20,017 bases of DNA from a virus, in IMG/VR virus record IMGVR_UViG_3300030380_003513, positions 1-20,017 of that record. One strand, given 5' to 3'. The notes beneath the pieces were generated by a model, which made no database searches, was not told the origin of the DNA, and saw nothing but the letters and a program-made list of their open reading frames with translations. Both the position numbers and the translations under genes were made by a program. Below are positions 7,331 to 20,017 of this stretch, one piece after another; positions within the stretch are counted from its first letter, which is position 1; each line of letters begins with the position of its first letter.

Positions 7331-8836
7331 TTACTTCATTAACATAAAGTTGTTAGCACCTTGTGTTACTAAACATCTTTCAGTTAAAAAGTGAACCTGC
7401 ATTGCGTCAAGAGCAGCTGTAGCAGCTCCAACAGAACCAGTAGTCCAAGACTTCATTCTTCGATCGTCAGTTTGAGAAGCTCTAAATCTAACGTGTAAGA
7501 AAGGTCTTTTTATACTTTGTCCTACTATTTGATCGTATACAGATGACATACCAGCTGGGATCATAACACCTCTAATAGCGTTAGAACCAGCAGCAGCGTT
7601 AATACCACCTCTTGTAGCTAAGTCATTTAAGTATCTAAAGTCAGACTTGTAGAAGTCGTAAGAACCTCTTCGGAAACCTGAGAAACCTAAATTTAAAGCC
7701 ATATCTTCGTCGTTGTCAAATACTCCAAATGAAGTACCTCCAGCTCCGTAAGAATTAAGAGAAGCTAACATATCGTCAATTGCTAAACTAGTAGCACGAT
7801 TAACGAACATCATATACTCTTCAATAGCACCTTGCTTGTCAAACTCAGCTAAAATAGCATCGAACTCAGCTAAATCAGTAGCTGGATTAACACCATTAAC
7901 ACCAGAAGTAAGATTACCTCTTGATTCAATAGCCGCGAATAAACCTTCTGTACCAGTTTCTTTAGTAGAAGCATCAGCTCCTGTACCACCTAATACGAAA
8001 GACTCTTCAGTAATGTCATTAGATTTACCACCTAATTCACCTTCTAGCATTGCCATTTCAATATAGTCAGTAAAACGAGCTCTTGTATCAGCTTCAGCTT
8101 TTAAATACCATAAGTAACCAGACTCACCCATTTCGTTTGAAACTTCAACCCAACCAATCCTAGAAACATCAGATCCTGATACTTCGTAGTAATCTTTCAT
8201 TATAATTGGTTTGTTTCTAAAGCTTTTGAATGCAGGTTCGTTAGCACCTCTAGTAGTTGCAGTAGCATCACCAGCAGGATTAAAATAACTAACACCTTTG
8301 CCAAACTCAGATCCGTAAACTAAAATAGTTGTTGCAGTTCCTGAAGTTGTACCACTTAGAGCAGCCGCGCCATAAATAGCAACGTCAATTCTATCTGTAG
8401 CAACTTTAACTACAACACCTTTTTTAACTCCGTTTGTTGAATCAGCTATAATGATAGTATCATTAACTCTAACACCGTGATTACCTGAAGCGATATCAGT
8501 GTTACCATCAATATCTTGAATTATATCTATTTGAGAAGATGAATCTAAACCAGATGCAGTAGAGTGTACGTGTCCTTTATAAGAAAAGTGTAATCTACCT
8601 TGTTCTGACCAAACTACTTCATCAGCAGTCATTGATTCTTCTGCACCAACTTGTGATAAAAATCCAGATATTGTTCGAGGTCCAAAGACCTCTGCTTCTT
8701 GCTCCATCAAGTCTGGTACGTATTGTTGTGCCCAACCTTGATTAGCAGTAGAAGACAAATCTAAATAATTTGTAGATAGCAGTTGTTGCCCTGGAGCAGG
8801 AACGCTATTCAAATTAGGTCCATTTGTAATTGCCAT
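7331..8836 (-). CDS. Major capsid protein (501 aa, HK97-fold type inferred)
   Basis: This 501-residue protein follows portal and scaffold-like genes and is followed by a strong terminator, the classic place for a highly expressed major capsid protein. Near residues 74-83 it has V-V-W-S-E-Q-G-R-L-H, a motif I associate with capsid proteins of marine and crAss-like phages. About residues 100-190 are beta-rich and Gly/Ser/Thr-rich and could be an insertion domain. The later part carries long acidic helices and a C-terminal R-P-F-L-H-V-R-F-R-A segment. Length fits crAss-like capsid proteins (about 490-510 aa). The leader is A/T-rich without a clear Shine-Dalgarno motif. Assignment rests on position, size and the motif. 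It is also the likeliest large client of the chaperonin encoded nearby. Confidence 0.88.
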   Translation of the reverse strand: MAITNGPNLNSVPAPGQQLLSTNYLDLSSTANQGWAQQYVPDLMEQEAEVFGPRTISGFLSQVGAEESMTADEVVWSEQGRLHFSYKGHVHSTASGLDSSSQIDIIQDIDGNTDIASGNHGVRVNDTIIIADSTNGVKKGVVVKVATDRIDVAIYGAAALSGTTSGTATTILVYGSEFGKGVSYFNPAGDATATTRGANEPAFKSFRNKPIIMKDYYEVSGSDVSRIGWVEVSNEMGESGYLWYLKAEADTRARFTDYIEMAMLEGELGGKSNDITEESFVLGGTGADASTKETGTEGLFAAIESRGNLTSGVNGVNPATDLAEFDAILAEFDKQGAIEEYMMFVNRATSLAIDDMLASLNSYGAGGTSFGVFDNDEDMALNLGFSGFRRGSYDFYKSDFRYLNDLATRGGINAAAGSNAIRGVMIPAGMSSVYDQIVGQSIKRPFLHVRFRASQTDDRRMKSWTTGSVGAATAALDAMQVHFLTERCLVTQGANNFMLMK

Positions 8837-14647: not shown

Positions 14648-14916
14648 TTTGATCTACCTTCTGCAAAACCTTTAAATGTTGTTTGCTTTTTTTCTTCAGT
14701 TTTACCTTCTATTATATTTTCTTCTTCGTGTATGCGATTAAGTATTTCAAACGCATCGAATATAGCTAACTTCTTTGTAGCGGCAGCATTTTTTAATCTG
14801 TCAGCTGATATATCATCATCGCTATCAACTATAGGTTCTTTAGCAACTTTTATAAGTTCTTCAACGGCTTTGCGCCCAGCTTGGATTATATTCTTTTTCG
14901 TCTCCTTTATATTCAT
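14644..14916 (-). CDS. Probable small terminase subunit (90 aa)
   Basis: A 90-residue helical protein directly upstream of the large terminase, sharing an ATGA overlap. The middle contains D-D-D-I-S-A-D-R-L-K-N-A-A-A-T-K-K-L-A-I-F-D-A-F-E-I-L, which should form an amphipathic helix pair, followed by an acidic helix and a basic tail. Small terminase subunits are short helical oligomers that recognise the packaging site and stimulate the motor; size and position fit. The start overlaps the preceding 195-aa gene by 56 nt. No later ATG exists in frame, so either the overlap is real or a non-ATG start is used. No classical helix-turn-helix is obvious, so the role is inferred from context. Confidence 0.72.
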   Translation of the reverse strand: MNIKETKKNIIQAGRKAVEELIKVAKEPIVDSDDDISADRLKNAAATKKLAIFDAFEILNRIHEEENIIEGKTEEKKQTTFKGFAEGRSK

Positions 14917-15448
14917 ATTTAATTGTAATAAATTTATTTAAAACCCTATATAATCTTTCACCGTTTATAACAAATTCATATTCACTATTAGGTGTAAAGC
15001 CAACTAAAGTATCTATATCAAAAGTTCCGTCGTTATATTTTATAATACCTATAAGAGATCTTTCTGTTTCTTTAACAAACTTATCATTTGATACTATAGG
15101 TTTTACAAAACTATAACCAGGCATAGCAGACCAACTAGCTTTTTTATATAAGTATATTTGATCTTTTGATATTATATATTTGTCTTCTTTCCAATAAGAT
15201 CTACTATTTTTTTCCCTACCTTTAACATCATGCCATCTTCTAAAAACATTATGATGTATTATAACTTCATCACCAACACTTATAGGTGTTTTGTATAAAA
15301 GTGGTATAGATATAATCTTTGCTAATCTATTTATGTATTGGTGATTAAATATCTCTGTATTTAATATTAGTTCTTTATTGTCTATTCGTTTAACATTATT
15401 ATAACGCTCGCCAATAGGAGAAACAATAAAATCTTTATAACCATCCAT
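14861..15448 (-). CDS. Protein with two tandem Cpn10/GroES-like halves (195 aa)
   Basis: I read two repeats of a Cpn10-like pattern. Half 1 (residues 6-103) has an opening strand D-F-I-V-S-P-I, K-E-L-I-L-N-T where the mobile loop would be, A-K-I-I-S-I-P, the hallmark S-V-G-D-E-V-I-I-H-H, and a closing K-Y-I-I-S-K-D-Q-I-Y-L-Y. Half 2 (111-178) repeats the order: Y-S-F-V-K-P-I, I-G-I-I-K-Y, L-V-G-F-T-P, then G-E-R-L-Y-R-V-L-N-K-F-I-T-I-K-Y. In GroES these correspond to the VKP strand, the G-x-V-x-x-V-G strand, VGD and the closing D-I-L-A-I strand. It begins with a TAATG overlap and ends inside the small-terminase candidate. Coding is secure; the fold is inferred by eye, and its role (chaperonin lid, or structural use of the fold) is unknown. 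Confidence 0.75.
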   Translation of the reverse strand: MDGYKDFIVSPIGERYNNVKRIDNKELILNTEIFNHQYINRLAKIISIPLLYKTPISVGDEVIIHHNVFRRWHDVKGREKNSRSYWKEDKYIISKDQIYLYKKASWSAMPGYSFVKPIVSNDKFVKETERSLIGIIKYNDGTFDIDTLVGFTPNSEYEFVINGERLYRVLNKFITIKYEYKGDEKEYNPSWAQSR

Positions 15449-16661: not shown

Positions 16662-17084
16662 TTATTTTTTATTTATTTGTTCATTTTTTTTTGACGAACC
16701 TCCAAAGAAGAAGTCGACAACTGTATTAACCTTGGCACTCATAGCACCGAATATTGTTGAGATGAAACTAATTTCAAACTCACCTAAGTTTATTTCTTTA
16801 ACTACAAAGACTTTAAACATCATAAAACTTAGTCCGAAGTACGCAGCAGTAAATAACGTTGCAAGTACTTTTTGAATAAACGCGTCGTCTTTGTACATAT
16901 CTCTAGCGCTCTTTCTGTCTTCGACTTCTTTCGCAAAGGCTTCTTTCTCAGCTTCGAGTAATAAGCTCTTGAGCGCAAGCTTGGCTTCATCTCTTTCTTT
17001 GTCTGTTGTAATAACTTTATCAAGTATTCCTTCTGCATTATTAACTACTTTACTGAATAAACTACCAATTACATTTCCTATCAT
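16662..17084 (-). CDS. Probable holin, GTA 3TM-holin-like (140 aa)
   Basis: Holins permeabilise the inner membrane at lysis. This 140-residue protein has an N-terminal amphipathic segment (1-20), a charged helix rich in Glu/Lys (28-66) with E-V-E-D-R-K-S-A-R-D-M-Y, and two hydrophobic spans at about 70-92 and 104-127. It ends in F-F-F-G-G-S-S-K-K and a basic tail. The E-D-R-x-S-A-R motif followed by membrane spans and an FFFGSS-type ending matches what I remember of the GTA-type 3TM holin family. Its start overlaps the previous gene by ATGA. No endolysin is visible nearby. A membrane-anchored structural protein is the alternative. Confidence 0.75.
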   Translation of the reverse strand: MIGNVIGSLFSKVVNNAEGILDKVITTDKERDEAKLALKSLLLEAEKEAFAKEVEDRKSARDMYKDDAFIQKVLATLFTAAYFGLSFMMFKVFVVKEINLGEFEISFISTIFGAMSAKVNTVVDFFFGGSSKKNEQINKK

Positions 17085-17521: not shown

Positions 17522-17535
17522 CTATTACGTAATAG
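17522..17535. promoter_or_regulatory. 14-nt palindrome before the winged-helix gene
   Basis: CTATTACGTAATAG is a perfect dyad directly abutting the start codon of the winged-helix gene and covering the tandem TAA TAG stops of the upstream gene. It could be an operator for autoregulation. Palindromes of this length are expected by chance about once or twice in 20 kb of this composition, so the case rests on position alone. Confidence 0.3.
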
Positions 17536-17926
17536 CAGCAGCTACATTAATAGAGTGAACAGAAGCAATATTAGGATCAATAGTAACAGCTAATCTTGTA
17601 CTGTCATCAAAATTTGTTGTTGCCATATCAGCAACAGTTATGATACCATCGCTTATACGCTGACCATTAATTGCTCTAGCAATAGATCGAACTACTTCTT
17701 TCATCGTGCCACTATTAATAGTAAGTGTAACATTGTCTGAAATAACGTTTTCGTTATCTGCTATGTTTCCAGCTTCATTGTTAACACTTCTAAAGAATAT
17801 TTGAACTCTTGTTCCTAATGAAGGAATTACACCGGTTATTCTACTAACTGGTACAAAGATTGAATCATCTATTCCATCGTCATCATCGACGTCTGATCTT
17901 TTTCTAAAATAAAGATATTTTTCCAT
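17525..17926 (-). CDS. Small tandem paralog B, virion-associated candidate (133 aa)
   Basis: A 133-residue protein beginning M-E-K-Y-L-Y-F-R and followed by an acidic D-V-D-D-D-D-G segment. It shares its start and overall order with the next gene upstream: an I-F-V-P-V-S-R-I strand region, a V-Q-I-F-F-R-S-V segment, a K-E-V-V-R-S-I-A-R-A-I-N helix, and an I-S-D-G-I-I-T-V hairpin with V-T-I-D-P near the end. The two are clear paralogs from duplication. No catalytic motif, signal peptide or membrane segment is seen. The position upstream of the packaging genes suggests a small structural protein, but the function is unknown. Confidence 0.72.
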   Translation of the reverse strand: MEKYLYFRKRSDVDDDDGIDDSIFVPVSRITGVIPSLGTRVQIFFRSVNNEAGNIADNENVISDNVTLTINSGTMKEVVRSIARAINGQRISDGIITVADMATTNFDDSTRLAVTIDPNIASVHSINVAAAIT

Positions 17927-17964: not shown

Positions 17965-18423
17965 TTATTGTGGATCTCCAACTGTTATAGCTGTGCAGTT
18001 ATCGTCAGCAACGTAAGCGAATGGTCCAGTAATAGAAGGATGTATTTTAATTTCTTCTACAGCTTCATTAGCTAAATTAGTAGTAACATGATCAAATACA
18101 GTGATAAATCCATCAGTATATAATTGATTAGAATTAATAGCCTGTATAATCGTTTCTATAATTTCTTTTTGAGTATGCCTAGCACACTCTATACCTACAG
18201 AATCAGTAAGAGTCTGTTCACTTGTTGCACCAGCTCGCAAAGCAGGTTGATTTCTAACACTTTCAAATTGTATTAAAATTCCACTATCAGTGTTTGGTGA
18301 TATAGATATAATCTTGCTAGTTGGTATCATTAAAGAAGTTGGATGATCAGTGTCAGTGCTTTTTGCAGTACCGTCATCATTATCAACATCAGCAACAACT
18401 CTAAAATATAAAAATTTTTCCAT
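17965..18423 (-). CDS. Small tandem paralog A, virion-associated candidate (152 aa)
   Basis: A 152-residue protein starting M-E-K-F-L-Y-F-R, with an acidic D-V-D-N-D-D-G run. Matched blocks with the 133-aa neighbour are the start, the L-M-I-P-T-S-K-I strand, an I-L-I-Q-F-E-S-V strand, the K-E-I-I-E-T-I-I-Q-A-I-N helix, and L-Y-T-D-G-F-I-T-V near residue 100. It carries an extra T-D-T-D-H-P-T segment near residue 22 and a longer C-terminus. Duplicated small proteins are common for phage decoration or minor head components; this is an inference. The leader is A/T-rich with no Shine-Dalgarno motif. Confidence 0.72.
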   Translation of the reverse strand: MEKFLYFRVVADVDNDDGTAKSTDTDHPTSLMIPTSKIISISPNTDSGILIQFESVRNQPALRAGATSEQTLTDSVGIECARHTQKEIIETIIQAINSNQLYTDGFITVFDHVTTNLANEAVEEIKIHPSITGPFAYVADDNCTAITVGDPQ

Positions 18424-18540: not shown

Positions 18541-18798
18541 TTATTCTACTATAACTATATCCCTAGCACGTATAACTCTATACATAGTATCATTATAAGC
18601 TATATCGTGTCCAGCAACAGCATCGTAATAAACACTATCACCTTTTTTAACAATAGGTACATCATTACCTACAGATATAATGTTTGCTTTTTTATATCTA
18701 TTTGTTTCATCTGTTTCATCAGTTAATATAAGGCCACCAACTTTCTTTGGCCCTTCTTTTATTATATCAACTATTACGTAATCGTTAACTGCTTGCAT
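18541..18798 (-). CDS. groES: GroES-type co-chaperonin, compact form (85 aa)
   Basis: This is the lid that caps the GroEL ring during folding. The 85 residues follow the family: an opening strand (4-13), a mobile-loop region (15-33) with G-G-L-I-L at 21-25 matching the GroEL-binding G-G-I-V-L of E. coli GroES, I-I-S-V-G (40-44), K-K-G-D-S-V-Y-Y (51-58), and a closing R-A-R-D-I-V-I-V-E. Between I-S-V-G-N and K-K-G-D only a few residues remain where E. coli GroES has its roof beta hairpin, so the dome is probably open, as known for T4 gp31. The start overlaps the groEL 3' end by 14 nt, so the two are co-translated. Bacterial operons normally have groES first; here the order is reversed. Confidence 0.92.
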   Translation of the reverse strand: MQAVNDYVIVDIIKEGPKKVGGLILTDETDETNRYKKANIISVGNDVPIVKKGDSVYYDAVAGHDIAYNDTMYRVIRARDIVIVE

Positions 18799-20017
18799 TT
18801 TCTATTCTTATGTTTGATATTACACAATCTGCTGACATTACTGTTAACGCTACACTTACAGCATTTTTAAGTGCGGACTTAGTTACAAGCACTGGATCAA
18901 TAATACCTTCGTTAATCATATTAACAAAGCCACCTGTTATAACATTGCAGCCACAACCATCTTGCATCTGTTCACCTACTTTAATACCAGCGTTGTCTAA
19001 TATAGTTTCATAAGGTGACGATAGTGCATTAAGCAATACTTTACCAGCGTTATTAGCTATAATCTTTTGGCTAGCGTTTAATAGTGCTACGCCACCACCT
19101 GGTACTATACCTTCTTGTAGTGCAGCTCTTGTAGCATATATAGCATCTTCAACACGATCTTTCTTTTCTTTAAGTTCAACCTTAGAGTTTGCCCCTACTT
19201 TAATTATACCTACGCTACCTGACAACATAGCAAGTCTATCTTCTAGTTTCTTTTTAATAAAACCATTTGACTCTTTAGCTAGCTTACTAGTTAACTCATC
19301 TATTCTATTTTCAATATCATTAGTCATACCTTCAATTGTTAGAACTGTATGTTTATTGTCTGTAACAGCAAAATCAGCTTCACCTAAGTGTTCAGGTTTC
19401 ATTAAGTCTAAATCATCTCCTAACTCTTCGTTAAGCACTGTAGCACCTGTTAGTATAGCTAGATCTTCTGTAGCATCTTTTTTAGTAGGACCAAAGCCTG
19501 GTAAATCAATAATGTTTACTTTAATATTACCCTTTACCTTATTCATCATAAGCGCGGCTTTAACAGGTTGTGCTACTGGCGCTATAACTAATAAAGCCCT
19601 ATTGTTTTTGATAACATGTTCTAGTATGTTTTGTATTTTACGCACGTTAGGTATTTCAGATGAACATATAAACACTAAAGGATTATCTAGTTCACAAGCT
19701 TGCTTTTCATTATTAGTAACAAAATGCGGTGAAGTAAGCCCACACTCTACTTTAACACCATCTACGATGTCAACATATGTTTCATCTGACTCGCTTTCTT
19801 CCATAAGTACAACACCTTGCTTACCAACTTTTTCATAAGCTTCTGCTATAATAGCACCTAGCTTTTCATCGTTATTACAAGATATAGCACTAACAGACTT
19901 TAACATATCACCTTCAACGTCAGTAGCTATATCATTTAAATAACTAATAACCTCGTCTAGCGTTTTGTTTACTCCATCTTTTATTTCTCTGATTGTAAGA
20001 CCATCTGCGACCGCAGC
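18785..20017 (-). CDS. groEL: GroEL-type chaperonin, 5' end cut by the window (410 residues visible)
   Basis: The frame is open to position 20017, starting in A-A-V-A-D-G, equivalent to about residue 109 of E. coli GroEL; the ATG at 19906 is internal. It covers the rest of the intermediate, apical and C-terminal equatorial domains. Conserved features include N-D-E-K-L-G near the start, P-G-F-G-P, V-E-L-K-E-K-K-D-R-V-E-D-A, P-G-G-G-V-A-L (nucleotide-binding Gly loop) and I-I-D-P-V, whose Asp matches the ATP-hydrolysis Asp398. Regions near the C-terminal equatorial domain are shortened, and the protein ends without the Gly-Gly-Met tail. Several apical positions that bind GroES or substrate differ. 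It probably assembles with the overlapping GroES to fold phage proteins. Single- or double-ring state cannot be judged here. Confidence 0.95.
   Translation of the reverse strand, partial: AAVADGLTIREIKDGVNKTLDEVISYLNDIATDVEGDMLKSVSAISCNNDEKLGAIIAEAYEKVGKQGVVLMEESESDETYVDIVDGVKVECGLTSPHFVTNNEKQACELDNPLVFICSSEIPNVRKIQNILEHVIKNNRALLVIAPVAQPVKAALMMNKVKGNIKVNIIDLPGFGPTKKDATEDLAILTGATVLNEELGDDLDLMKPEHLGEADFAVTDNKHTVLTIEGMTNDIENRIDELTSKLAKESNGFIKKKLEDRLAMLSGSVGIIKVGANSKVELKEKKDRVEDAIYATRAALQEGIVPGGGVALLNASQKIIANNAGKVLLNALSSPYETILDNAGIKVGEQMQDGCGCNVITGGFVNMINEGIIDPVLVTKSALKNAVSVALTVMSADCVISNIRIENASS

Follow-up and report, generated by a model that had tools for sequence, protein, structure and literature searches.

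A conserved GroES without a roof hairpin is encoded beside its own GroEL in a phage of a likely Bacteroidota host

Introduction

Why would a phage encode a GroES whose roof hairpin is absent, and does that absence reflect the folding of a large virion protein? How a phage lid can tune the folding cage is known, in the literature that we found, mainly from gp31 of phage T4, which serves the folding of its capsid protein (PMC3012670). The locus considered here lies in a window (the whole stretch of DNA that was analyzed) that is identical to the complete 20,017-base virus record IMGVR_UViG_3300030380_003513, so that the phage genome is present only as a fragment. The original prediction for this locus, made from its sequence, was that a phage unrelated to T4 had lost the GroES roof as in gp31, that the loss enlarges the folding cage and that it was selected for a large client, most simply the 501-residue capsid protein encoded in the same window.

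Results

All of the recognizable genes of the window are on the minus strand, and they comprise GroEL (cut at the window end), GroES, two small paralogues, a possible holin, small proteins, a 195-aa protein, the terminase, the portal, a 378-aa protein, the major capsid protein and more virion genes. The major capsid protein (7331..8836, minus strand; 501 aa, 53.6 kDa), which is the candidate client, matched phrog_13704 with 320 bits, and relatives with ~39–44% identity to it were found in Caudoviricetes MW202828, Maribacter phage Panino, the Flavobacterium elemo phages and Cellulophaga phages. Based on this kinship to phages of Bacteroidota, the host is likely a Bacteroidota bacterium, with Bacteroidia as the likely hosts. 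Chaperonins in such phages are not without precedent, as GroEL was already known from metagenomic relatives of phi38:1 (PMC5332604) and the core genes of the Pervagoviridae include a "chaperonin cpn10" (PMC8776804). The two adjoining small paralogues (17525–17926 and 17965–18423, minus strand), which are immediately downstream of groES, have 37% identity to each other (E 5e-23) and no match to any family. The product of the possible holin gene, a 140-aa protein (16662–17084, minus strand), had a weak holin-family match (phrog_3427, E 0.0012).

The groES gene (18541..18798, minus strand) encodes an 85-aa Cpn10, an assignment based on residue counts, an AlphaFold2 model, a match to Pfam Cpn10 (PF00166; 46.4 bits with a cut-off of 21.1) and a best PHROG match to phrog_3188 (57.9 bits, versus just 21 bits for the T4-type family phrog_931). 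Roof length, counted from the residue after the glycine of "VG" to the residue before that of "GD", is 8 in the window GroES, 17 in that of E. coli K-12, 10 in T4 gp31 and 10–12 in other T4-type phages. The count of nine fewer residues than E. coli agrees with the "about ten" that had been predicted. By alignment and entropy, the stub that remains is NDVPIVKK (GroES residues 45–52; 18642..18665, minus strand, with codons 18666–18643 in descending order, ±1 base). A roof of exactly 8 residues was found in all 66 distinct close relatives of the window GroES and in all 62 distinct sequences of the sister group (MW202828-type), which ruled out chance, a sequencing slip or an error in a single genome as the cause of the short roof. 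The letters of the stub are variable, its length is constant, and by letters it is the least conserved part of GroES (entropy of 1.18 bits per position versus 0.50 for the whole protein). The part most conserved within the clade is the mobile loop (0.30 bits), whose segment (residues 13–38; 18684..18762, minus strand) was assigned from alignment, entropy and the model and contains the GroEL-binding motif (GG-hydrophobic) in the form of GGLIL, which is conserved in the clade.

The AlphaFold2 model of the GroES monomer, made from 58 aligned sequences, is a confident normal barrel with a flexible mobile loop and a bare turn in place of the roof (pLDDT 85.7 overall, ~94 at the roof and ~57–70 in the mobile loop), and has no strand from residue 43 to residue 55. 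Foldseek matches of the model were Cpn10 structures, gp31 included, with E values down to 5.8e-6, and the window protein thus has the GroES beta-barrel fold. We checked the model for an intact roof formed by other residues and found none; a rebuilt roof was ruled out as the model has no added segment able to form one. Hence, the hairpin is lost as in gp31, just as predicted. The roof hairpin is a usual but not a defining feature of Cpn10/GroES proteins, being absent in gp31 and in Arabidopsis Cpn10.

The partner groEL gene (18785..20017, minus strand) has lost its 5' end at the window edge, and its reading frame shares 14 bases with that of groES. Its identity is evident from matches to Pfam Cpn60 (114.7 bits) and phrog_5725 (321.5 bits), and from its residues and C-terminus. 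The ATPase residues D52, D87, T89 and D398 are kept in the complete GroELs of the clade, and D398 is kept in the partial gene of the window. The C-terminal GGM tail, which in E. coli GroEL sits at the chamber floor, is absent from 73 of 73 complete GroELs of the window clade and 64 of 64 of the sister group (137 in total), and 68 of the 70 complete GroELs from hosts have it; a GroEL end without this tail may provide extra room in the chamber. Clade GroELs are also changed in the groove for lid and substrate, at positions 203, 234, 259 and 386 (L234Q, L259K and E386K), and at the inter-ring positions R452, E461 and V464. The combination of retained ATPase residues with changed groove and inter-ring positions fits a dedicated GroEL-GroES pair. 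The altered inter-ring positions raise the question of a single-ring GroEL, of which residue changes of this kind are no proof. GroEL and GroES co-occur in 17 of 17 large genomes of the phage group, and the GroEL of phi38:1 has been detected as protein in infected cells (PMC13288928). These analyses confirm that the phage GroES is real, conserved, roofless and accompanied by its own GroEL.

Judged from the sequences, the phage roof is 4–5 residues shorter than that of the likely host GroES, versus nine shorter than that of E. coli. Chromosomal GroES of Bacteroidales had a roof of 12 in 80 of 80 sequences, an uneven sample picked by similarity to one Bacteroides query. A second set of 54 Bacteroidia loci, with second copies counted too, was composed of four Bacteroidales genomes, the 30 loci that scored best in a class-wide search and 20 more from its weaker or middle ranks; among the 53 that were measurable the roof was 12 in 30, 13 in 13, 17 in five and of other values in five. 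As host Bacteroidia roofs are mostly of 12–13 residues, about half of the shortening would be older than the phage. In addition, Cpn10(1) and Cpn10(2) of Arabidopsis are both without a roof loop (PMC4242682), and roof loss is thus no phage signature. Both the host roofs and the roofless Arabidopsis proteins weaken the claim of selection for a large client. A second GroES copy in one of the Bacteroidia genomes (L462 in G145) has a roof of just 9 residues and is perhaps prophage-derived.

The T4-type GroES proteins form a separate clade in the GroES tree (support 100/99) and the window GroES was not found to be a member of it, in keeping with the predicted lack of relationship to T4. In the GroEL tree, the window clade groups (98/95) with Panino, elemoB and the MW202828 types, and the GroEL of SJC03, a Bacteroides phage, lies among those of Bacteroidota hosts (98/98), outside the window clade; Panino, elemoB, phi38:1 and phi14:2 are long branches in this tree and their placement is unsure. 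In Cellulophaga phage phi14:2 there is a GroEL, and no GroES was found with phrog_3188 or phrog_13932. Roof length in the other related phages is 8 in elemoB and MW202828, 11 in Panino and 15 in phi38:1; it is also 8 in SJC03, and long roofs occur elsewhere, with 17 in immuto and 16–17 in most of the sampled large-genome phages. The proposal that separate phages arrived at the same loss was supported in part. Some convergence is likely because SJC03 has an 8-residue roof yet its GroEL groups with those of Bacteroidota hosts, but a single origin of all short-roof phage GroES was not rejected by the GroES tree (p-AU 0.115), whose ~96 columns hold little signal. Taken together, the two trees suggest that the roof was shortened separately in no fewer than three phage lineages (T4 types, the window clade and SJC03), a count which rests partly on GroEL as a proxy for GroES.

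The analogy with gp31 was less secure in regard to the cage itself. The 8% larger chamber of gp31 is tied to its longer mobile loops and heavier monomer, and its absent roof to a wider opening (PMC6318259); gp31 specificity may also depend on features subtler than size (PMC3012670). The mobile-loop segment has 28 residues in the window GroES, 31 in gp31 and 26 in both hosts and E. coli, an excess over hosts of +2 for the window and +5 for gp31. By these counts, the long mobile loop linked to the gp31 cage is mostly missing in the window GroES, which weakens the predicted enlargement. The case for tying roof loss specifically to the 501-aa capsid protein is a weak one, as that protein is smaller than T4 gp23 (~56 kDa) and elemoB also has a roof of 8 with a smaller capsid protein (452 aa, 49.0 kDa). 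Capsid proteins of the window clade range from 486 to 510 aa and the roof is constant; across 452–510 aa within the clade, where lineages are too few to test this properly, the roof was not seen to change in step with the size of the capsid protein. The smallest capsid proteins (~450-aa frames) are those of Panino and phi38:1, whose roofs are 11 and 15, which may point to a weak trend of longer roofs with smaller capsid proteins. The GroEL-GroES pair is on the opposite strand to the virion genes in elemoB and among replication genes in phi38:1, and co-expression with virion genes is therefore no general rule. Overall, a client-size explanation of roof loss is plausible, and reasonable but not established.

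A second co-chaperonin-like gene (14861..15448, minus strand), located just upstream of the terminase region, encodes the 195-aa protein. It matched phrog_13932, "co-chaperonin GroES" (E 1.5e-16), a profile that also has hits, presumably to GroES genes, in 9 of 14 bacterial and archaeal genomes used as controls. In the phi38:1 homolog, the second half was matched by the GroES profile phrog_3188 (E 1.3e-7). The AlphaFold2 model of the protein is moderate (pLDDT 70.9), and its best Foldseek match was chloroplast Cpn20 (7ekq_R, E 5.2e-4), with a TM of only 0.48 over 202 columns; aligned structurally, the protein has just 9–12% identity to chains of the Cpn20 type. From this model the protein is predicted to consist of two GroES-like halves and to be Cpn20-like. 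In 17 of 17 large genomes of the group the tandem gene occurred together with GroEL and GroES; profile searches did not find it in phi14:2 or SJC03. The gene as such was already known, since the Panino and elemoB annotations include it. By analogy to Cpn10 and Cpn20 in chloroplasts, our guess would be that the tandem protein is a second lid subunit; a function in packaging or in the virion is just as possible.

Discussion

The window GroES and T4 gp31, with the other T4-type proteins of phrog_931, are alike in being phage Cpn10s without a roof hairpin. They differ in that gp31 belongs to a separate clade, has a longer mobile loop and extra segments and uses the host GroEL, whereas the window phage supplies its own tail-less GroEL. 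The window clade is a second and largely unrelated natural case of a roofless phage lid, with its own GroEL. Chromosomal GroES of Bacteroidota is of the same family and its roof is short, although 4–5 residues longer than that of the window, and the host GroEL bears the GGM tail.

We favor an explanation, to which we give an even chance of being correct, in which the phage encodes its own dedicated group I GroEL-GroES pair with an open-topped lid, a roomier chamber and virion proteins as clients, the roof having been lost in two steps. The 85-aa GroES would form the usual ring and dock on the co-encoded GroEL via its conserved mobile loop, with its dome closing in a short turn that leaves the top open. 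The absent roof and the absent GroEL tail would leave the chamber roomier at both its top and its bottom, and a bulky chain could protrude through the open top. The roof would already have been trimmed to 12–13 residues in Bacteroidota GroES and then, probably, cut to 8 and fixed in the phage lineage. Clients would most likely be virion proteins of the phage, the capsid protein foremost. This explanation is favored by the groEL-groES overlap, the constant roof of 8, the hairpin-free model, the tail loss, the groove changes, the 17 of 17 co-occurrence and the detection of phi38:1 GroEL as protein. Against it are the mobile loop being shorter than that of gp31, the roof of 8 alongside a smaller capsid protein in elemoB, and the placement of the pair in elemoB and phi38:1.

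It is possible, if rather doubtful, that GroES can do without the roof and that drift removed it from an already short Bacteroidota form, with no relation to client size, and that the pair matters for amount, timing or escape from host control. Drift would be consistent with host roofs that are already 12–13 residues, the Arabidopsis Cpn10s without a roof (PMC4242682), the poor conservation of the stub letters and the independence of roof length from capsid-protein size over 452–510 aa. However, drift need not yield an exact length of 8 in each of 128 distinct sequences from two groups and once more in SJC03, and in the window clade roof loss is accompanied by loss of the GroEL tail. We consider it very improbable that this GroES is a decayed, non-functional remnant. 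Its shortening and its divergence from host GroES (27–34% identity) might be read in that way, but there is strong conservation across the clade, which is highest in the mobile loop, and an intact-looking GroEL always accompanies it.

The Arabidopsis chloroplast resembles the window in that a Cpn10 lacking the roof loop is accompanied by a GroES-like protein with two domains, which in the window protein are predicted, and its roofless Cpn10(1) functions solely as a hetero-oligomer with Cpn20 (PMC4242682). A comparable mixed-ring lid, in which the tandem protein joins the roofless Cpn10 and with roof absence as part of that arrangement, would suit both the presence of the tandem gene with GroEL and GroES in 17 of 17 large genomes and Cpn20 being the nearest solved structure to its product. 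Nonetheless, we regard such a lid as unlikely, as the tandem gene adjoins the terminase and not groEL, the GroEL-binding motif of its product is uncertain, the mobile loop of its second half is seemingly incomplete, the three genes co-occur within one related group and the protein may function in packaging or the virion. Similarly improbable is the broader proposal of a widespread clade of Bacteroidota podoviruses that has a chaperonin of three parts (GroEL without a tail, roofless Cpn10 and tandem Cpn20-like protein) with an open mixed-ring lid specialized for virion proteins. If true, it would represent an open mixed-ring lid of a type otherwise known from chloroplasts.

Some relatives of the window phage are in culture. 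The elemo phages, Panino, phi38:1 and MW202828 are related phages that, like the window phage, have GroEL, GroES and tandem GroES-like genes. Although elemoB and MW202828 share the roof of 8, Panino and phi38:1 differ: among the cultured relatives, the roof segment is retained in phi38:1 (15), partly retained in Panino (11) and missing in the elemo phages (8). This gradation makes the link between roof, cage and client directly testable in Cellulophaga, Maribacter and Flavobacterium phages.
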